Below are positions 1 through 10,691 of a stretch of 64,000 bases of DNA, in pieces. Where the stretch lies: the NCBI RefSeq assembly GCF_030010555.1, contig NZ_JASCQP010000027.1:154610-218609 (forward strand), in the 5' to 3' direction. This stretch comes from Halomonas rhizosphaerae. Lineage in GTDB: Bacteria; Pseudomonadota; Gammaproteobacteria; Pseudomonadales; Halomonadaceae. Position 1 is the first letter of the stretch. Each line of letters starts with the position of its first letter. The position numbers were made by a program, and so were the translations under genes. Below the pieces are notes generated by a model, which was given only the letters and a program-made list of their open reading frames with translations, did no database searches and was not told where the DNA came from.

Positions 1-1139
1 GCGACCTGATCTACAACGCCTGCTATGCCTATCAGGACTATCCACCCGATGCGAGACGACTCGATATCCTGCTGGAAAGCGCGCTGGGCATGGCAAGCCT
101 CCATGAAGCTCACCCCATCCCAACGCTTTCCTGCCCGGACGATAACCATCACATGATCGGCGAGAGCTCGGTCATGCGAGAACTCTACCGCACCATTCAC
201 AAGGTGGCCGGTGCCGATGCTCCCGTCCTGATTACCGGGGAGTCCGGTACGGGGAAGGAACTCACGGCTCGAGCCATCCATGCCCATTCATCCAGAGGCC
301 ATGGCCCGTTCAACGTCGTCAATTGTGGGGCTCTACCTTCCGGCCTCATCCAGTCCGAACTCTTCGGCCATGAGAAGGGCGCCTTCACCGGGGCCAACCA
401 GCGCAAGATAGGCATTATAGAAAACTCACAAGGAGGAACGCTTTTTCTCGACGAGATCGGGGATCTGCCCCTGGATATGCAGGTCAACCTGCTCCGCTTC
501 CTGGAAAACCTCAAGGTCTTCCGCGTCGGTGGACTCAAGGAAATCCCCGTCGATGTCAGGGTCCTTGCCGCGACCCACGTCGACCTCGAGAAAGCGGTGG
601 AGATGGGAGAGTTCCGCGAGGACCTCTATCACCGGCTCAATGTGCTTCAAGTCAGGACACCAGCGCTAAGGGAACACCCAGAGGACATCGAGCCGCTCGC
701 CCGTTTCTTCTTCCAGAAGTTCTCCGCAGAAAAGCCATCCCGGGTTCGTGGGTTCAGCCACGATTGTACGGTAGTCATGCGACAGCACCCCTGGCCGGGG
801 AACATACGTGAACTGGTCAACCGGGTCAGGCGTTCCATGGTCATGTGCGAGCAACGACTCATCAGACCCACCGACATGGGGCTCGAAAGACGCCAGAGTC
901 TTTCACGGGATACCGATACCCTGCAGCAGGTACGCGACATGGCAGAGTCTGAAGCCATCAGGGCTGCCCTGGCACGCAACAAGCACAAGGTGCTGCATGC
1001 GGCGCGAGAGCTGGGCGTGTCGCGGGTCACCTTGTATCGGCTACTCGAGAAGCACTGCATCGACAAGAACGGTGGTTCGGTTGATGGAAAAACGGTTGAT
1101 CCATCGACATTCAGATTAGTTCAACTAACCTCAACATGA
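1..1139 (+). CDS. sigma-54-dependent activator, VpsR/FleQ-like (5'-truncated)
   Basis: Bacterial enhancer-binding protein that would remodel sigma-54 RNA polymerase. The reading frame is open to the window edge, so the first Met at 90 is probably internal. The upstream residues (ending in LLESALGMASL) look like the end of a VpsR-type receiver-like domain. Counting from that Met: Walker A GESGTGKE at about 50-57, the sigma-54 contact loop GAFTGA at about 97-102, Walker B GGTLFLDEIGD at about 115-125, and a Fis-type helix-turn-helix in the last 55 residues (about 296-325). All key motifs are intact. VpsR-like proteins often control matrix or fibre genes and may bind c-di-GMP. The neighbouring Fap-like genes carry sigma-54-type promoters, so they are its likely targets (inference). 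Confidence 0.93.
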   Translation, partial: DLIYNACYAYQDYPPDARRLDILLESALGMASLHEAHPIPTLSCPDDNHHMIGESSVMRELYRTIHKVAGADAPVLITGESGTGKELTARAIHAHSSRGHGPFNVVNCGALPSGLIQSELFGHEKGAFTGANQRKIGIIENSQGGTLFLDEIGDLPLDMQVNLLRFLENLKVFRVGGLKEIPVDVRVLAATHVDLEKAVEMGEFREDLYHRLNVLQVRTPALREHPEDIEPLARFFFQKFSAEKPSRVRGFSHDCTVVMRQHPWPGNIRELVNRVRRSMVMCEQRLIRPTDMGLERRQSLSRDTDTLQQVRDMAESEAIRAALARNKHKVLHAARELGVSRVTLYRLLEKHCIDKNGGSVDGKTVDPSTFRLVQLTST

Positions 1140-1234
1140 TGGATGAGGGTCACATACGCCCACTGACCAGTCCTACTCATACTTGACAGGGGTTCTGTGA
1201 CCAAAATTGGTCGATGTCTCTCCCGGGGCGGACG

Positions 1235-1250
1235 AGGCACTACGCAAGCA
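1235..1250 (+). promoter_or_regulatory. possible sigma-54 promoter before the outer-membrane protein gene
   Basis: AGGCACTACGCAAGCA has GG and GC dinucleotides separated by exactly 10 bases and a perfect GGCAC half. The -12 half is weaker (AAGC instead of TTGC). The predicted transcript start would fall only about 10 bases before the ATG at 1271, which is short, so this is a tentative call supported mainly by the adjacent sigma-54 activator. Confidence 0.35.
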
Positions 1251-1270
1251 AGAAGAAAAGGAAGGGAACC

Positions 1271-2362
1271 ATGAGTTCACGAGCCACGAGCATCCTCTAT
1301 ACCGCCAGCATGCTAACGGTGATCGGTTGCACGCCGGTTCTGGCCCAGCAGACGGCACAGGACACGCAGATCCAACCGGTCGGCCAGGAGCCCGAGCAGC
1401 AGGAGGTCCAGCCGGACGTCCAGGCCATGGCGGAATATGGCGGCGTGCTGACTCCCAAGGGCAGGCTGGTACTGGAGCCGGAATTCCAGTACTCCCACGA
1501 GAGCATCAACCGGATGACATTCCAGGGCGTGGAAGTATTGAGTACGCTCCTAATCGGCGTGTTCACGGCAGAGGATGTCGACCGGGACAACTACACGGCC
1601 TCTTTGACCGGTCGTCTGGGCTTTACCGATCGCCTGGAACTCGAGATGAAGGTGCCCTATGTCTACCGGGATGAATCGAACCGTGTCACCGTCTCCGAAG
1701 TTGACCCCGACTTCACTCTGAACAGAGAATTATCCAATGATGCGCTGGGCGATATCGAGTTGGCTGCGCACTATCAGATCAACCGTGGCCTGGATGGCAT
1801 GCCCTACTTCATCGGCAACCTTCGCTACAAGAGCACCACTGGTGAGGGGCCCTTCGATATCCGCCGCAACAGCGCGGGAACCCCCCTGGAACTGTCCACC
1901 GGCACCGGCTTCCACTCGATCGAGCCCAGCATCACCATGCTGCTTCCCTCCGCGCCGGCCGTCTACTTCGCCAATCTGGGCTACGTCTTTCATCTGGAAG
2001 ATGATGTCAACCAGCAGGTTACCCAGGATGATGACGACCTGTTCATAGGTGATGTGGATCCCGGAGATGCCGTTCGACTGAGTTTCGGCATGGCCTACTC
2101 CATCAACCCGAGGACTTCCTTCACACTGGGCTACAAGAACGACTTCATCGGCAAGACCAAGACGGAATATGTCAACAACACTGACGGCACTACCACCCGG
2201 GTCAGCTCCAACACACTGAACGTCGGCTCCCTGCTGCTCGGGTGGTCCTACCAGCTGAATCCGGATGTCTCGGTCAACCTGGGTTTAGAACTGGGTATTA
2301 CCGACGATGCCCCGGACACGACCCTGACCCTGCGCATGCCCATCGGCATGGACGCGTTCTAG
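1271..2362 (+). CDS. outer-membrane beta-barrel transporter, FapF-like
   Basis: Predicted 363-residue outer-membrane protein of the 'transporter' (phenol MetA-degradation-like) barrel family that includes FapF, the export pore of functional amyloid. I chose Met 1271 because GGAAGGG lies just upstream; the open frame starts earlier at 1214 without a ribosome site. An N-terminal signal peptide ends at PVLA-QQ; a lipobox-like VIGC also occurs, so lipoprotein processing is possible. A Gln/Glu-rich linker (about residues 26-50) precedes the conserved block beginning GGVLTPKGRLVLEPEFQYS. The rest alternates hydrophobic and polar residues and ends in Phe, typical of Omp85-assembled barrels. It is convergent with the operon encoding a C39 peptidase and glycine-rich protein, as expected for a fibre-secretion locus. 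Confidence 0.8.
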   Translation: MSSRATSILYTASMLTVIGCTPVLAQQTAQDTQIQPVGQEPEQQEVQPDVQAMAEYGGVLTPKGRLVLEPEFQYSHESINRMTFQGVEVLSTLLIGVFTAEDVDRDNYTASLTGRLGFTDRLELEMKVPYVYRDESNRVTVSEVDPDFTLNRELSNDALGDIELAAHYQINRGLDGMPYFIGNLRYKSTTGEGPFDIRRNSAGTPLELSTGTGFHSIEPSITMLLPSAPAVYFANLGYVFHLEDDVNQQVTQDDDDLFIGDVDPGDAVRLSFGMAYSINPRTSFTLGYKNDFIGKTKTEYVNNTDGTTTRVSSNTLNVGSLLLGWSYQLNPDVSVNLGLELGITDDAPDTTLTLRMPIGMDAF

Positions 2363-2379
2363 CCAAGGGTATAAAACAT

Positions 2380-2404
2380 GACGGCTGCCGAATCGGCAGC
2401 CGTC
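2380..2404. terminator. bidirectional terminator between convergent fap-like units
   Basis: A perfect 11-bp stem (GACGGCTGCCG / CGGCAGCCGTC) with an AAT loop follows the barrel gene. Reading on the minus strand the hairpin is followed by ATGTTTTAT, so it can also end the convergent operon arriving from 2498. Confidence 0.75.
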
Positions 2405-2497
2405 TCATCACGTTCATCTTTCCCTCAACCATACCTTCCTCCAGGGTATGCCCTGCCCTCATATGACAGTGCGCACATGGTTGCCGGCTGGTATCTA

Positions 2498-3199
2498 TCA
2501 GCGCAGGATTCCCGAGAAGGAATCAACAATTTCGGCCCTTTGCTTGGCTGCCCTAAGTGCGCCAACATTATTGAGGCGAACGTCGATATCGATCCTCTGC
2601 TGAATATCCCTTCCGGAAGCATTGCTCACCACACCGCTGACAATGGCGTTACGCGTGATATTGTGCAGGGCTGCCGTGAAACCCTTGGGATCGTTCAGGG
2701 TAACGCCGGAAAAGTCCGCCAGCCCCGAGAGGTCGATACTACCGGGACTCACATCGGTCACAGTGAGCCCCGTACCCGGTCCCACCTGACTGGCTGACAT
2801 GGAGGGATCACGGAATGTCTGGGACACGATGTCGGCTCCCGCCTTTGTGAAGTTAACGACCGACACCAGTTCGATACTGTTGTCGATCATCGTCTGCAGT
2901 CTCGCGCCGAAGTCCACGTCGAGTCCACCGATATTGAATCCCGCCCGCATCTGATCGAGCTCGGCCTCGGCGATGACGTCCCCTCGATGGAAGTCATCCC
3001 TCGTCACCGCCGATGACTCAACCTCCGGATAGAGACTCGCCGGTGCCTGAGCGCTCACGTACTGTACCCATTGGCCATTGACCGGAGCGTCATATTCTGC
3101 CAGCGGGGCCGCCTGGCCTCCGGCTGCCACCAGCACCAGCAGAGCGCCCATCCACCGCGGCCCATTTGTCCTTCGCATCGTCCTAGTTCGAGATGGCAT
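2498..3199 (-). CDS. exported protein of the Fap-like operon
   Basis: Protein of 233 residues, last gene of the operon, 15 bases after the C39 peptidase gene. The start at 3199 is set by GAGGAG eight bases upstream. A hydrophobic segment near residues 16-31 (ALLVLVAAGGQAAPLA) reads as a signal peptide with cleavage after AQA or AAP. The mature part has the motif AELDQMRAGF, then Gly/Asp-rich segments and a C-terminal region with many small polar residues. No catalytic motif is visible. Its position suggests a minor fibre subunit or assembly factor comparable to FapE; that role is inferred from context, not from a sequence match I can prove. Confidence 0.75.
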   Translation of the reverse strand: MPSRTRTMRRTNGPRWMGALLVLVAAGGQAAPLAEYDAPVNGQWVQYVSAQAPASLYPEVESSAVTRDDFHRGDVIAEAELDQMRAGFNIGGLDVDFGARLQTMIDNSIELVSVVNFTKAGADIVSQTFRDPSMSASQVGPGTGLTVTDVSPGSIDLSGLADFSGVTLNDPKGFTAALHNITRNAIVSGVVSNASGRDIQQRIDIDVRLNNVGALRAAKQRAEIVDSFSGILR

Positions 3200-3214
3200 C
3201 TTCAGAACTCCTCA

Positions 3215-3919
3215 TTATCGGCCCATCTCATTCCTGGCGGGCAGGGTCAGCAGGCTGGCACCAATGCTTGAGCGGTTCACACCTCTCGCCAACGGTGAAT
3301 CGGGACGCACGGCCCAGTCCTGCTCATGGTTGAAGTGGTTACGGGCAATCTCGATCTCCTCGCGCGCCCCCAGAACCGTTCCGTTCCACAGGGACTCGAA
3401 GTGCTCTCTCGGCACCACTTGGGTGCCTGCTGCAGGATCGCCTACCAGGATATTATCGGCATCGATGCCCTTGACGACGACGAAATGCTTGTAGCCCCCG
3501 GTGTCCACCATGGTAATGGCTGGCACCCCGATTCGAATGAAGTCATCCAGGCTGATCCTGAACCCATCGGCATTGAGCCCTTGGGCATCCAGGTAACGCT
3601 TCATGTCCAGCATGGAGAAACCGTGTCGCTGTATCTGCTCGGCATCCCCGGCACGGATCATGCTTTCAAAGACCTCTGCCTCGGTGGTCTGGCGCTGGTA
3701 GTGGAAGGTCAACAGTGTCGCGACGGACGCGGAGCCACAGCTGAAGTCGTACTGCTGCCTGATCACCCTGTCCCAGCCCTTCTCCTGCAGGCTCTTGGCC
3801 TCGACCTGAAAGCTGCCGAAACGATTGGCAATGGCTACCTGGCCGGCATGGGCAACCAAAGTACTTCCAATGAGAACGAGTGACGCCATGCCACAGCAGA
3901 ATTGCCTGGTCAGTTTCAT
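3215..3919 (-). CDS. C39-family cysteine peptidase, FapD-like
   Basis: Secreted 234-residue protein with signal peptide (cleavage near AHA-GQ). It carries the papain-like C39 domain: Cys in QQYDFSCGSASVATLL (about residue 60), the histidine in GYKHFVVVKG (about residue 145) and Asp in the following VGDPAAG. In bacteriocin exporters this domain cuts double-glycine leaders. In fap operons a stand-alone C39 protein (FapD) accompanies the pore and is needed for fibre export. All three catalytic positions look present, so an active protease is plausible. AGGGG upstream supports the start. Third of four genes on the minus strand. Confidence 0.88.
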   Translation of the reverse strand: MKLTRQFCCGMASLVLIGSTLVAHAGQVAIANRFGSFQVEAKSLQEKGWDRVIRQQYDFSCGSASVATLLTFHYQRQTTEAEVFESMIRAGDAEQIQRHGFSMLDMKRYLDAQGLNADGFRISLDDFIRIGVPAITMVDTGGYKHFVVVKGIDADNILVGDPAAGTQVVPREHFESLWNGTVLGAREEIEIARNHFNHEQDWAVRPDSPLARGVNRSSIGASLLTLPARNEMGR

Positions 3920-3969
3920 GGCAAGTCATCCCCTGGCTGGAAAATCGTGGATCCGAACCCGATCAAGGC

Positions 3970-4398
3970 TCAGTTTGCGATGAAGACACTGATGCCCACC
4001 GCATTGTTGATGGAATTCCCGTTGCCGGTCACGGCGCTGAAGATTCCGGTACCGCTATAGCTCCCCAAGGCATCTGGGGCGAAGCTTATATTGCCCGAGA
4101 CCATGTCCCCACCGATATCGAAGGAGGTATCCGTCACCGAGGCCTTCATGTTCTGGACGCTTTTCACCGAATTGAAGTTGACGATCGTCTCCCCTTCCCT
4201 GGCCCGTGCCTTACCCATCTCCTCCAGATCCATCCGCTCCATGGCAGCGAAGCCAGCCGCCTGAGCTGAAGAGCCATCATCTGCCTGGCTCTGTGCCATA
4301 CCGAGGATGATCAGCACCATGGAGAAAGCGATAACCATCAACTGCAGTTGTCGAGGAGATAACGTGGATTGAGTTGAACTGACTGATGACACCTTCAT
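3970..4398 (-). CDS. small exported protein of the Fap-like operon
   Basis: 142-residue protein; start taken at 4398 because GGGAG lies eight bases upstream, whereas the longer frame from 4425 has no ribosome site. One hydrophobic helix (QLQLMVIAFSMVLIILGMAQ, about residues 20-39) serves as signal or anchor, with a possible cleavage after SQA. The C-terminal third, with SGTGIFSAVTGNGNSINNA, is rich in Asn, Ser and Gly and resembles the short amyloid-type strands of fibre subunits; the neighbouring glycine-rich protein ends in a similar style. Possibly a nucleator or minor subunit. No family assigned with certainty. Confidence 0.72.
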   Translation of the reverse strand: MKVSSVSSTQSTLSPRQLQLMVIAFSMVLIILGMAQSQADDGSSAQAAGFAAMERMDLEEMGKARAREGETIVNFNSVKSVQNMKASVTDTSFDIGGDMVSGNISFAPDALGSYSGTGIFSAVTGNGNSINNAVGISVFIAN

Positions 4399-4503
4399 GG
4401 CCTTGACTCCCGGTATCCGGTCCATAGGGACAGTTCATCAAGGGAGCCGATGGAGTTGCCCCCACCAGCCCCCGCTTCTTGCGAGCGCGTCATACGCCCC
4501 GTA

Positions 4504-5670
4504 TCAGTTGGTGCCGATGCTCACGTTGCTGTGAGCCGCGACGTTGGTGCCAGATACCTGGGAGTTGTAGAGCCCGGTGGACACGTTCATGTTGTTGATG
4601 CCACCGAACACTCCGGCTCCGACGGACACGTTGGCGGCACCGGTGGCCAGGCTGGCAGCACCGCCATTGCCGCCGTCACCGCCTGCACCACCGTTGCCGG
4701 CATAAGCGTAGGCATCACCGGTGGTGGCACTGCCACCGCCGCCGCCACCGCCATTGCCATTGCCGCCGTTACCGGCCATGGCATCGCCATCGCCACCATC
4801 GCCGCCGTTACCGGCAGTGGCGGCACCCTCGCCGGTACCAGTACCGGTGCCGCTGCCAGTGCCGGCCCCACCGTCGCCAGAGCTTGCGCTGGCGGTGGCA
4901 TCAGAGTCGGCATCGGCGTCCTGGTCACCAGCAAAGGCTGCGGTCGCATCGTCGTCGGCAAATTCATCACCGACTTCGCCGAGCGCGGCGAGGTTGCCGG
5001 CGGCAGATCCAGAAGCAGCGCCAGCGCCGGAACCTGTGCTCCCGCCTTGACCGGCTCCATTGCCTGCGCCAAGTCCGAGGCCAAGGCCGTTGGCGTCACC
5101 GCCATCTTCTCCTTCCCCGCCTACGGCAGCCGCTAAGCCGCCGGCACCACCATTCCCGTTACCGCCGGCACCACCAACACCGATTCCAACATTGGCAGAA
5201 AGCGCACCTCCGCCTTGTCCACCGTTACCACCAGCAGCACCGCCACCACCAGTGATGGTGATGCCGGCACCGTTGACGGTGGAACTCATCTCTTGCAGAG
5301 AGATGACACTGGTGGAGGTGTTGTAGGACTCGCTCATGGCCCAGGCATCCCCACCTCGGCCTACGGAGCCGCCGTTGCCACCGGTGCCAGTCCCGGCACC
5401 ATAGCCGCCGGTACCGCCGTTGGCCCCGGTGGAATCGTCATCGTTGGAGTCGTCGTCGTTGGTTCCTCCATTGGCACTGCCGCCAAAGCCCCAGCCGGTA
5501 CCGGCAGCACCGTTGCCACCACCGGTGCTGCCACCGATCGCCGTCGCCGTGGAATCCACGTCCTGGTCGACTTCATCGGCGAATCCTGCGCTGGGGTTGG
5601 CATGCGCCGTGGAGATGGCCATCACCATGGCCAGCAGAGGGGTACCCGCTACTACGAGATACTTTTTCAT
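4504..5670 (-). CDS. glycine-rich secreted protein, probable fibre/adhesin subunit
   Basis: 388-residue secreted protein, first gene of the operon. Start at 5670 (MKKYLVV) has GGAGA eight bases upstream; a Met two codons earlier is too close. Signal peptide ends at AHA-NP. The mature chain is dominated by GGxGGNGG-type repeats, with acidic clusters (for example DDDSNDDD near residue 75 and a DADADSD run near residue 255) that could bind calcium. Two less repetitive blocks, YNTSTSVISLQEM (about 117-130) and the last 35 residues from INNMNVSTG, look like structured or amyloid-forming segments. No cysteine is present, unlike FapB/FapC. I infer a matrix or fibre subunit exported by the local barrel protein; a PGRS-like adhesin is the alternative. 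Confidence 0.8.
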   Translation of the reverse strand: MKKYLVVAGTPLLAMVMAISTAHANPSAGFADEVDQDVDSTATAIGGSTGGGNGAAGTGWGFGGSANGGTNDDDSNDDDSTGANGGTGGYGAGTGTGGNGGSVGRGGDAWAMSESYNTSTSVISLQEMSSTVNGAGITITGGGGAAGGNGGQGGGALSANVGIGVGGAGGNGNGGAGGLAAAVGGEGEDGGDANGLGLGLGAGNGAGQGGSTGSGAGAASGSAAGNLAALGEVGDEFADDDATAAFAGDQDADADSDATASASSGDGGAGTGSGTGTGTGEGAATAGNGGDGGDGDAMAGNGGNGNGGGGGGGSATTGDAYAYAGNGGAGGDGGNGGAASLATGAANVSVGAGVFGGINNMNVSTGLYNSQVSGTNVAAHSNVSIGTN

Positions 5671-5783
5671 GATCATGTCTCCATTTGTTGTGTCTGCTGC
5701 AGCCTGCGAACTCGCGCCATCGTCCCTACCCGTTACGCCTGGACCCTTGAATGACGCTTCCTGCTCGCAGTCACCAACCCATC

Positions 5784-5799
5784 AGCATGATCCATGCCA
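5784..5799 (-). promoter_or_regulatory. sigma-54 promoter of the Fap-like operon
   Basis: Read on the minus strand the site is TGGCATGGATCATGCT: GG and GC are exactly 10 bases apart and it matches the TGGCAC-N5-TTGCA consensus at most positions. The start of transcription would be near 5773, giving a leader of about 100 bases before the glycine-rich gene. The sigma-54 activator encoded at 1-1139 is the obvious candidate regulator. Confidence 0.7.
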
Positions 5800-6144
5800 G
5801 TTGACGATCTACTGTATGTAATAGACTGTAAGAAACGAAAATTTATAAAATCCGGACACTTCCCAATCAGTGGGGGCATTGCCGCGGCGTTTTGTAACTG
5901 AATAGTTAGTGCTTCATAAGTGAAACACTGAGTCGGCAAAGCAGCTTGGAGCGCCATGCATTCTCTTCAGAAACAGAGCACTACCGGTTTCACACGAAGT
6001 GACTCGGCAGCGTTACAGTCAGGCATCGAAAAGCACCGGACCGACCAGCTGTCGGCTGGCCGCTCCCCATCGCCGCCGTTATGCTGCTGGGGTTGATGCA
6101 CTGCAGCGGCGGCCAGGCCTGGCCGCCCGGGCCGAGGAGCCAAG
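5800..6144. other. AT-richer intergenic region upstream of the Fap-like operon
   Basis: No convincing gene. This stretch lies behind the sigma-54 promoter and is where enhancer sites for the activator would be expected. It is distinctly AT-richer around 5810-5900 than its flanks. Its right end carries GAGGAG before the patatin gene. Confidence 0.5.
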
Positions 6145-7179
6145 ATGAGCGAGAGACGACGGATCGACCTGGCCCTGCAGGGTGGCGGCGCCCATGGCGC
6201 CTTCACCTGGGGCGTGATGGACCGCCTGCTCGAGGACGAGCGCATCGAGATCGAGGGCATCAGCGGGACCAGTGCCGGCGCCATGAACGGCGTGGTGATG
6301 GCCGATGCTCTGACCCGCGGCGACGAATCCACCGCCCGCGTAGCCCTGCGCGACTTCTGGCGCGCCGTCAGCCGGGCGGGCATGGCGAGCCCCGTGCGCC
6401 GAACCCCGCTGGACGTGCTGACCGGGAACTGGAGCCTCGACCACTCCCCGGGCTACATCGCCCTGGACCTGATGAGCCGGCTGGTCTCGCCCTACCACTT
6501 CAATCCCTTCAACTTCAATCCGCTGCGCGACATCGTCGCCGAACGGGTCGACTTCGACCGGGTCCGCGGCTGCGAGGACCTCAAGCTCTTCGTCACCGCC
6601 ACCAACGTGCGCAGCGGCAAGCAGCGGATCTTCTCCCGCGAGGAGATGAGCCTCGATGCGGTGATGGCCTCGGCCTGTCTGCCCACGGTCTTCCAGGCGG
6701 TGGAAATCGACGGCGAGGCCTACTGGGATGGCGGCTACATGGGCAATCCCTCGCTCTCGCCGCTGCTTCACCAGTGCAGCGCGGGCGACATCCTGGTGGT
6801 GCAGATCACCCCCATGTACCGCCAGGAGGTGCCCACCAGCGCCGCGGACATCCTGAACCGCCTCAACGAGATCACCTTCAATGCCGCCCTGATCAAGGAG
6901 GTGCGGACGATCGTGATGCTGCAGAAGCTGCTCGGCGAGCATGACATCGACATCGGCTGCTACCGGGAGGCGCGGCTCCACCACCTCAGCGGTGACGAAC
7001 CCCTGTCGCACCTCTCCGTCTCCAGCAAGCTCAACGCCGAGTGGGCCTTCCTCTCCCACCTGCATGAACTGGGGCGCGAGACCACCGAGGCCTGGCTCAC
7101 CCAGCACTTCGACGATCTGGGCCAGCGCTCCACCCTGGACGTGGAACGCATCTTCCAGGAGGCCGAGGCGCCTCGCTGA
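6145..7179 (+). CDS. patatin-like phospholipase
   Basis: 344-residue serine lipid acyl hydrolase. The glycine-rich oxyanion motif QGGGAHG (residues 12-18), the nucleophile elbow GTSAG (Ser43) and the catalytic Asp of the WDGG motif (about residue 195) form a complete Ser-Asp dyad. There is no signal peptide, so it should act in the cytoplasm or at the inner membrane on phospholipid or acyl esters. GAGGAG seven bases upstream fixes the start. It is transcribed away from the Fap-like operon and appears monocistronic. Confidence 0.93.
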   Translation: MSERRRIDLALQGGGAHGAFTWGVMDRLLEDERIEIEGISGTSAGAMNGVVMADALTRGDESTARVALRDFWRAVSRAGMASPVRRTPLDVLTGNWSLDHSPGYIALDLMSRLVSPYHFNPFNFNPLRDIVAERVDFDRVRGCEDLKLFVTATNVRSGKQRIFSREEMSLDAVMASACLPTVFQAVEIDGEAYWDGGYMGNPSLSPLLHQCSAGDILVVQITPMYRQEVPTSAADILNRLNEITFNAALIKEVRTIVMLQKLLGEHDIDIGCYREARLHHLSGDEPLSHLSVSSKLNAEWAFLSHLHELGRETTEAWLTQHFDDLGQRSTLDVERIFQEAEAPR

Positions 7180-8861: not shown

Positions 8862-10691
8862 TCAGGCCGGGCCAATACCGGCCGTGCCAAACAGCATCAA
8901 CAGGGCCAGCCCCGCGGCCACGCCCATCATCAGCACCGCCGCATGGCGGCGCAGCCATCCCTCGCCGCGCGTCATGCCGTCCAATGCCTCGATGGCGTCG
9001 CGCTCGCGTGCCACCCACCAGGCCACCCAGGCGCCCTGGACGCTGCCGAGCCGGTCCAGACTGCCCTGAGCCCATACACGTAGCCGCTGCCAGCCCCCCA
9101 CCAGCAGCCACCAGAGGTCGCCGGGCGGTAGTCGCCGGGTGACCCGCAACGGACGCCACCGCGCCACGCCCCAGGTCGCGACCGAGCCCGCAAGGCCCAG
9201 GGCCAGCGGCCACAGCAGCCCGGGGAGCTCGGCCAGCGGTGGCCAGCCCTGATCGACGAGCTCATCACCCAGCCACCAGGGCAGGGTCAGTGCGGCCAGC
9301 AGGGTCGCCAGCCAGGCCAGCGGCATGGGCGACAGCAGGGGTTCCAGGCCATCCTGGCGGGCCTGGCGATCGGCCTGCCACTGGCACCAGAGGGTGCGGG
9401 CCATCAGCGCCGTGGTGCCCACCGCCGCCAGGGAGAGCCAGGTCACCACGACCTTGTAGCCGCCGTCGTAGAGCACCGTCTTGAAGGCCCACTTGGCGGC
9501 CAGCCCCGAGGCCAGGGCCCCGGTCAGGGACAGCGCCGGCAGTGCCAGCAGGGTCCAGAGCAGCCAGCCCGGCAGACGCGGCGGGTGCTCGCCGATGCCC
9601 ACCCCGAGGAACAGCGCCCCCTTGGTCAGGCCGTGATGGGCGGCGAACAGCACCACCGCCATCGACAGCGCCGGCCACAGGGCGGGGGCGACGAGCCCCA
9701 TGGCCACCAGGGCGGTGATCATGCCCATCTGGCTGACGCTGGAATAGGCCAGCACCGCCTTGGGGTGGCGCTGGCAGACCCCGTAGAGGGCCGCCCCGAT
9801 GGCGGCCGCCAGGCCGGCCACCAGCATGGCCCGACCCAGCCAGGTGAACGCTTCGGTGGCGGCCGGCTCGCCCAGCGGCAGGGTAGCGAGCCAGCCGAAC
9901 AGGCCTGCCTTGATCATCGCCCCGCTGAGCACCGCGCTGGCCGGCGTCGGCGCCACCGGATGGGCCAACGGCAGCCAGAGGTGAAGCCCCACTACCCCCG
10001 CCTTGACCCCGAAGCCGAGCCACAGCAGCAGGCCCATCCAGGCTCCACCCGGTGCCTCGCCCATTCCCTCGCGCAGGCCGCCCAGCGTGGTGGTACCGGC
10101 ACTCCCTGCCCCCCACAGCAGCCCGGCCAGGATCAGGCCCTCGCCCAGCACCGCCATCACCAGGTAGGCCTGGCCGCCGGTGCGCGCGTCCGGGGTCCCC
10201 GAATGCACCACCAGGCCGTAGCCAGCGAAGGTCATCACCGCGAAGCCCAGATAGAAGCTGGCGATGTCCTCGGCGACGAGCAGCAGCAGGTTGCCGGAGA
10301 GCGTCAGCGGCCAGAGCAGCGCGAAGCGCGTCAACCGGGCCTCGGCGCCCCCGTCGCCGGCCACCGCCTTGTCCAGTTCGCCGGCCAGGTAGCCCCGGGC
10401 ATATCCCCCCGCCAGCAACCAGAGCAGCGCCGTGACGGCCAGCAACGCGTTCCGCGTACCGTCCAGCGCCCAGTGCCCGCCGAACAGCCACCAGTCCAGT
10501 GCCAATGCCCCCTCCTCCACGCCCAGGGCCAGCGCCAGGGCGGGCAACGGCGCAGTACACCAGAGCCCGTCGATCAGAGCAGCCGGACGTCCACGATCGG
10601 CCAGGGCCGCCATCAGCGGCACCCGCAGCATCAGCAGCAACGGCCAGAGCAGTGCGGTAGGCATCGCAAGGGCAAGAAGCGCATCGCTCAT
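8862..10691 (-). CDS. proton-conducting antiporter-like subunit (NuoL/MrpA family)
   Basis: 609-residue polytopic membrane protein of the proton-conducting membrane transporter family (NuoL, MrpA-N, HyfB). About 14-16 hydrophobic segments; conserved core around HSGTPDARTGGQAYLV and LHLWLPLAHPVAPTPASAVL, the typical helix 7-8 region containing a functional Lys/His. Start at 10691 overlaps the preceding stop by ATGA and has GGAG upstream. Last gene of a four-gene operon (14330 to 8862). Likely catalyses proton- or Na+-coupled cation exchange together with its neighbours. Confidence 0.9.
   Translation of the reverse strand: MSDALLALAMPTALLWPLLLMLRVPLMAALADRGRPAALIDGLWCTAPLPALALALGVEEGALALDWWLFGGHWALDGTRNALLAVTALLWLLAGGYARGYLAGELDKAVAGDGGAEARLTRFALLWPLTLSGNLLLLVAEDIASFYLGFAVMTFAGYGLVVHSGTPDARTGGQAYLVMAVLGEGLILAGLLWGAGSAGTTTLGGLREGMGEAPGGAWMGLLLWLGFGVKAGVVGLHLWLPLAHPVAPTPASAVLSGAMIKAGLFGWLATLPLGEPAATEAFTWLGRAMLVAGLAAAIGAALYGVCQRHPKAVLAYSSVSQMGMITALVAMGLVAPALWPALSMAVVLFAAHHGLTKGALFLGVGIGEHPPRLPGWLLWTLLALPALSLTGALASGLAAKWAFKTVLYDGGYKVVVTWLSLAAVGTTALMARTLWCQWQADRQARQDGLEPLLSPMPLAWLATLLAALTLPWWLGDELVDQGWPPLAELPGLLWPLALGLAGSVATWGVARWRPLRVTRRLPPGDLWWLLVGGWQRLRVWAQGSLDRLGSVQGAWVAWWVARERDAIEALDGMTRGEGWLRRHAAVLMMGVAAGLALLMLFGTAGIGPA

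Follow-up and report, generated by a model that had tools for sequence, protein, structure and literature searches.

The functional-amyloid system Fap brings together a C39 peptidase (FapD), a protein encoded directly after it (FapE) and an outer-membrane barrel (FapF) with subunits carrying FapB/FapC repeats; in Pseudomonas fluorescens it is served by RpoN and by an adjacent activator, BrfA, that responds to cyclic dimeric guanosine monophosphate, according to the available parts of PMC9207406 and PMC13101488. C39 proteins and barrels are also paired in the Fil locus (FilB/FilC, 'putative pilus system'), and the accessible portions of PMC6173800 report co-located fapD and fapF homologues in five further phyla, that is, the same two families adjoining outside Fap operons. 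Here we describe a locus in a 64,000-nucleotide stretch of Halomonas rhizosphaerae DNA (GCF_030010555.1, contig NZ_JASCQP010000027.1, positions 154,610-218,609 of the forward strand; the window in what follows). Its six genes form two convergent units: a VpsR/BrfA-type sigma-54 activator and a FapF-like barrel on the plus strand, and a minus-strand operon encoding, in order, a glycine-rich secreted protein of 390 residues (5676-4504), a small secreted protein of 151 residues (4425-3970), a C39 peptidase of 234 residues (3919-3215) and a secreted protein of 233 residues (3199-2498). It is likely, in our judgement, that these genes specify a secretion system of Fap type that belongs to a clade of its own, the sister of canonical Fap, and that works by the scheme of activation, promoter use, cleavage and export set out below. 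An earlier note on this DNA had proposed a previously undescribed Fap variant with a different subunit, an idea that fits the results.

The barrel (363 residues, 1271..2362, plus strand) matches the NCBIfam FapF model NF058560 at 1.8e-42 (145.6 bits, model positions 99-417 of 420) and the FapF chains of the PDB at 8.7e-33. Its AlphaFold2 model, built on 19 sequences, reaches a predicted local distance difference test score (pLDDT) of 76.6, with residues 1-57 below 50, and Foldseek retrieves FapF as the best match (3.2e-20, 23-25% identity). The next fold is the COG4313 channel 4rl8 (1e-9), which would suit a small-molecule channel of the COG4313 kind, with the glycine-rich and 151-residue proteins as neighbours and not cargo; we consider this very improbable, as FapF is much the closer fold and as the barrel gene comes with C39 and FapE-like genes in each of the 46 Halomonadaceae loci described below. 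The barrel lacks a counterpart to roughly the first 98 positions of the FapF model; since the alignment to that model begins only at position 99 and the predicted structure is disordered over residues 1-57, the coiled-coil part of FapF is taken to be missing, a difference from Fap. The assigned start, ATG 1271, is preceded by AAGGAAGGG, and an in-frame ATG also lies at 1214.

The C39 peptidase matches the FapD model NF058616 at 9.5e-41 (139.5 bits) and PF03412 at 1.2e-20, and its catalytic stretches (C61, H145 and D161) are intact. It shares the fold family and catalytic residues with the double-glycine C39 domains of ATP-binding cassette (ABC) exporters such as PCAT and ComA (2.7e-7 to the exporter peptidase structure 6mpz) but is free-standing, probably periplasmic, and not fused to an ABC transporter. 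The Fil components match more weakly than those of Fap, FilB at 3.6e-35 (121.7 of 475 bits) and FilC at 2.6e-19 (69.8 of 630 bits), both below cut-off, and the Fil-like loci L119 and L121 have other accessory genes. The two proteins also lie far below the NCBIfam equivalog cut-offs of 700 bits for FapF and 330 bits for FapD. However, the FapD cut-off was passed by none of the 369 genomes of a class survey, canonical fap loci included, so these cut-offs do not separate the barrel and the peptidase from Fap; the survey also matched in 7 of 14 control genomes, and its figure of 77 in 369 must not be read as the number of Fap-like systems.

A search of GTDB genome contigs with the barrel, a query that selects for the barrel itself and may have left out records of the window's own genome, returned 56 loci, 46 of them from Halomonadaceae. 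By tblastn the activator, the C39 peptidase and the 233-residue protein are present in 46 of 46 of these, the 151-residue protein in 44 and the glycine-rich protein in 41; profile and open reading frame (ORF) inspection adds the 151-residue protein in L026 and the glycine-rich protein in L029, L033, L035 and L044. The cluster is complete in 45 of the 46 loci, the contig of the remaining one (L008) being cut, and the copies in L024 and L042 look broken. The earlier note had set its reading to fall if barrel and peptidase proved unrelated to Fap components or the genes did not occur together elsewhere; both proteins are significantly related to them, and the genes are found together within Halomonadaceae and outside the family. 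Across 151 Halomonadaceae genomes the barrel profile matches in 45, of which 32 carry the present type (484-536 bits), 19 canonical Fap (234-258 bits) and 8 both, the types being assigned by bit score, two matches being weak and only L130-L139 having been checked gene by gene; in a sample of the phylum, matches of either type were obtained in 40 of 398. The clade extends to other Gamma- and Alphaproteobacteria, with Brevundimonas and Parvularcula (Alphaproteobacteria) inside it.

Five distinct loci (L026, L027, L029, L030 and L130; L131-L133 duplicate three of them) carry in succession a first activator, a complete fapFEDCBA operon, a second activator, the barrel and the 233-residue, C39, 151-residue and glycine-rich genes. 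L033 has the same order, with fapF and the first activator cut by the contig, and in G012, outside Halomonadaceae, both C39 types are present. A complete fap operon and this cluster, side by side and each with its own VpsR-type activator, point to separate systems. Canonical Fap that has merely diverged in Halomonadaceae would have the same component families and order, and the NCBIfam cut-offs, which canonical loci miss as well, are no argument against it; it is nonetheless improbable given these paired loci, the genomes with both barrel types, the lack of FapB/C repeats and the trees. In the C39 tree (81 rows) the present clade, 54 rows, has a Shimodaira-Hasegawa-like approximate likelihood ratio (SH-aLRT) support of 99 and Fap, 24 rows, one of 95, the fork to the Fil-like outgroup being weak (58); in the barrel tree (78 rows) Fap, 23 rows, has 98 and the present clade 99, the latter including one long Fil-like row, L120. 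Both are quick trees, from which L118 was dropped for its short C39 piece. As a separate observation, L134 holds at 9816-10423 a remnant of a fap operon (fapA and a 97-residue end of fapF) between two activators, beside an intact copy of the present system.

The likeness to Fap comprises a C39 peptidase homologous to FapD, which the tree nevertheless places outside the Fap clade, a FapE-like protein after it, a FapF-type barrel, an RpoN promoter and an adjacent VpsR-like activator, in the common order subunits-D-E-F-activator. The barrel gene is flipped: fapF comes last on the same strand in Fap, whereas the barrel gene here runs towards the operon, in the window as in each of the 46 Halomonadaceae loci. 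The genes of the minus-strand operon are spaced by 78, 50 and 15 bases, and an 11-bp hairpin (2380..2404) lies between the convergent units, its T-run on the minus-strand side and closing the minus operon. The compact unit of the earlier note is accordingly a cluster of genes in two convergent units, not one. All five non-regulatory proteins have a hydrophobic, Sec-like N-terminal stretch by crude hydropathy. Given the absence of repeats, the different gene order and the branching outside Fap, we do not file the system as Fap, even though in all likelihood it works like Fap.

The 233-residue protein (minus strand), whose gene follows the C39 gene immediately, as it does in fap, has no match in Pfam or NCBIfam. 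In profile-profile comparison (hhalign) the family of this protein matches canonical FapE at 2e-6 over a stretch of 40 residues and FapA at 4.4e-4, whereas unrelated families give 0.41-0.73; judged by these profiles, it is a divergent FapE. An alignment of 15 diverse FapE-like clade members, with a mean column identity of 23%, is invariant at three columns alone, the start Met, R85 and G87, the latter two lying within the motif E-L-D-Q-M-R-A-G-F (residues 80-88, 2936..2962, minus strand), a candidate C39 site by its R-[G/A]-G conservation. As most of the non-Halomonad rows of that alignment came from a motif-filtered list, the protein after the C39 gene was chosen again by position or profile alone. 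R-[G/A]-G stands at the expected place in 55 of these 55 proteins (the window and other Halomonadaceae account for 47, further groups for 8). This count is for a motif loosened afterwards, the strict one being found in 42; the looser motif occurs in 97 of 11000 shuffles and 6 of 1506 other ORFs. It is present in 31 of 33 non-Halomonad clade loci and was not found in L054 and L140; the surroundings in L143 are unusual. R-[G/A]-G aligns with the RG[R/K] of canonical FapE, which is found in 23 of 23 proteins and as RG[R/K][F/Y] in 21, a set of which 13 were first picked with a preference for RG[RKTL], L102, L103 and eight Halomonad proteins (six of the eight with F/Y) being added by position or profile.

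Double-glycine leaders have hydrophobic residues at positions -12, -7 and -4, Gly at -1 and Gly or Ala at -2, and the spacing of the motif fits this pattern. R-[G/A]-G thus resembles a C39 double-glycine site, and the candidate cleavage would fall after G87. It is quite possible, if short of an even chance, that the motif instead serves in docking or folding, or marks where an old amyloid repeat began. In canonical FapE, R or K occupies the position at which Gly, Ala or Ser is expected in a C39 site. Several results weigh against cleavage: none of the known double-glycine leader families is significant on the 15 FapE-like proteins, the lantibiotic-leader models matching one of the 15 at 0.13-0.14, and stretches related to the candidate site occur in the 151-residue protein and in FapA, yet FapA-D were seen unprocessed in Fap (PMC5557850, in the parts available), which counts against cutting of the FapA stretch. 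The same parts of that paper describe Fap proteins as without canonical C39 sites while noting GG and GA motifs in FapE, and those of PMC5135000 point to a double-glycine motif in FapF instead. In favour of cleavage, the first ~70 residues of FapE yielded no peptides in mass spectrometry and the motif lies at the edge of this missing part; moreover, the motif protein adjoins the C39 peptidase, and the active-site Cys of FapD was required for FapC secretion (both from PMC5557850, as far as its available parts go).

Some further observations concern this protein and its neighbourhood. A structure of the 233-residue protein folded without an alignment had a pLDDT of 34.8 and was not used. The FapE-like protein of L111 (5472-6683) has a long coiled-coil stretch ahead of its RGG motif, and in L110, L113 and L116 a separate coiled-coil protein is encoded between the FapE-like gene and the barrel, giving the impression that the FapF coiled coil has moved. 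In L104 (5469-5816) the gene between those for the barrel and the FapE-like protein encodes an exported protein of 115 residues with LSAQELGEVSGAG, which closely resembles a double-glycine leader. The RHIM amyloid motif of Pfam weakly matches two FapE-like members (best E value 0.011).

The glycine-rich protein is the likely cargo and may form amyloid. It contains 121 Gly in 390 residues (31%) and no Cys, hence no CxxC, and its middle and C-terminal blocks are conserved; one 23-residue block aligns with the 151-residue family at 4.7e-4. The PGRS-like label of the earlier note holds for composition, in which it is like PE_PGRS proteins, and not for a PE domain or PGRS homology, as it has no Pfam or NCBIfam match. 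That note had also found the subunit to look nothing like FapB/FapC, and for the glycine-rich protein profiles agree: at full sensitivity the FapC repeat profile gives E values of 3 for it and 0.36 for the 151-residue protein, with no FapB/C repeat detected in either by this search. Elsewhere in the operon, by contrast, the 233-residue protein is FapE-like and the C-terminus of the 151-residue protein aligns with the last repeat, at the C-terminus, of FapB at 1.6e-4, by profile-profile comparison only. The 151-residue protein (minus strand) also shares a 24-residue leader-like stretch, with RAREG, with the 233-residue family (6.9e-6). From the profiles used here Halomonad proteins outside length limits were dropped (45, 44 and 43 rows kept), as was the FapC of L102 for a masked stretch.

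Beyond Halomonadaceae, the large protein encoded close to the C39 gene is glycine-rich (25-32%) in L109, L117, L140, L143 and L145 and Asn/Ser/Asp-rich in L108 and L114-L116; the C-terminal sequence of these large proteins, GI..vsQNsG..SLvQQ.v.VqAn, gives 3.1e-4 in alignment with the final repeat of FapB. The C-terminus of the Halomonad glycine-rich protein was also tried as a FapC repeat: the two are alike by eye, the profiles give 0.28 (FapC) and 0.65 (FapB), and kinship is not claimed. This outcome, the comparison of that C-terminus with the other large clade subunits (0.21 by profile, alike by eye only), the FapC repeat result for the glycine-rich protein and that for the 151-residue C-terminus against FapC (0.11, no match) all tell against the Fap-type reading. 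The alternative that the system secretes an adhesin or matrix protein of non-amyloid kind, with a glycine-rich chain that makes a layer of hydrated or polyglycine type and a Fap-like machine that does no more than export it, deserves to be taken seriously even if we rather doubt it. The chain has no amyloid repeats, its Gly-Gly lags of 2, 3 and 6 are enriched in the family (mean z 3.9, 2.9 and 2.7), and its glycine-rich or Asn/Ser/Asp-rich character across the clade suggests a chain that varies while the machine stays. The FapB-like ends kept in the 151-residue protein and in the large proteins outside Halomonadaceae argue against this alternative. As a side observation, L146 (1924-5873) has a tandem duplicate of the 151-like and C39 genes, the C39 copies being identical.

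The activator gene (1..1139, ORF 3-1139, plus strand) starts 280 bases before the window and encodes 472 residues in the genome, with a VpsR domain (PF20161, 60.8 bits), a sigma-54 AAA+ domain (PF00158, 229 bits) and a Fis-type helix-turn-helix (HTH_8, 35 bits); rpoN is present in the genome (480.6 bits). The earlier note had correctly recognized a VpsR-like sigma-54 activator here and had counted it as a feature of the variant. It is present, but Fap too has a BrfA-type activator, as do the canonical fap operons met here; regulation by RpoN and a BrfA-like protein is published for Fap, at least in the parts of those papers cited above, and is therefore a shared trait and not new. When the activator was tried as a marker of the system, the activator tree (75 of 92 rows, 17 near-copies dropped) required 11 label changes, at least five of them forced by well-supported branches, which counts against a dedicated regulator; by this tree, activators are exchanged between the two systems and not system-specific.

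A -24/-12 promoter, TGGCATGGATCATGCT (5784..5799, minus strand), lies 107 bases before the glycine-rich gene. The bare -24/-12 pattern with up to 3 mismatches matches 276 times in the 64 kb against 288 expected, which is chance. Of 47 upstream regions of the glycine-rich gene, 40 were placed at first, with a mean best score of 21.3 of 23.5 against 16.2 (standard deviation 1.4) in shuffles, which are the fair control, column information being inflated as each site is the best match. Six more, found in a wider stretch, score 20-22.5, and L008 has a contig without the gene; in all, 44 of 46 regions score at least 20, the lowest 18. The predicted promoter before the operon is thus borne out by conservation, while the weaker one suggested before the barrel is at chance level (mean 16.7 in 47 regions against 16.35 in shuffles). 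Upstream of fapA, the positive control, 11 of 12 regions score at least 20 (shuffles 1.6%), and upstream of the large clade subunits outside Halomonadaceae only 3 of 8 (shuffles 3.5%).

Further upstream lies a palindrome, TGTTTCA-N4-TGAAGCA (5910..5927), a likely activator site by prediction, whose centre is 119 bases upstream of the -24 T and which is the best match in the 64 kb. The pattern TGTTTCA-N4-TGAAACA, written down after 16 of the 40 regions had been seen, occurs with up to 4 mismatches in 38 of the 40 (shuffles 14%), in 31 with its centre 105-128 bases upstream of the -24 T, and in five of the six later regions, three of them at that distance. In L007 and L011-L013 the activator shares only 55-57% identity with that of the window, while barrel and C39 peptidase share 87-95%, and the left arm of the palindrome reads TGTCTCA; activator and palindrome look as if changed together there, probably in one event. 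A patatin-like phospholipase gene (6145-7179 of the window) adjoins the promoter region and is a neighbour in only part of the Halomonadaceae loci.

In the scheme we propose, the VpsR/BrfA-like activator would bind the palindrome and drive the sigma-54 promoter of the minus-strand operon, as the conserved sequences suggest, and all products would be exported via Sec. In the periplasm the C39 peptidase would cut the FapE-like protein after R-[G/A]-G, whereupon the FapF-like barrel would pass the glycine-rich and 151-residue proteins to the surface. There the 151-residue protein may serve for nucleation or anchoring in the manner of FapB, and the glycine-rich protein may form fibres or a hydrated matrix layer. 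More tentatively, and with more doubt than confidence, we suggest that a second deep clade exports large low-complexity chains with at most one Fap-like C-terminal motif as an export or assembly tag, and that the C39 peptidase licenses export in both clades by cutting FapE, at R-[G/A]-G here and at RG[R/K] in Fap.

Our literature search found no paper describing this clade. The available parts of PMC6173800 report co-localization alone and do not describe cargo, FapE-like partner, promoter or clade, and the fap surveys in PMC12822426 required, in the parts seen, FapB/C repeats near other fap genes and would have missed this clade by design. Judged from the sequences, three features are new: the subunit is rich in glycine and shows no FapB/C repeats that profiles can detect, the barrel gene is flipped, and one R-[G/A]-G is conserved in the FapE-like protein. 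Two things make the system interesting. Genomes in which the two systems are neighbours allow a natural comparison of the cargoes that such a machine can handle, and the candidate cut site can be tested: the only strongly conserved motif of the FapE-like protein looks like a double-glycine site and offers a one-residue test for both systems, and comparing the two suggests where their shared protease may cut.

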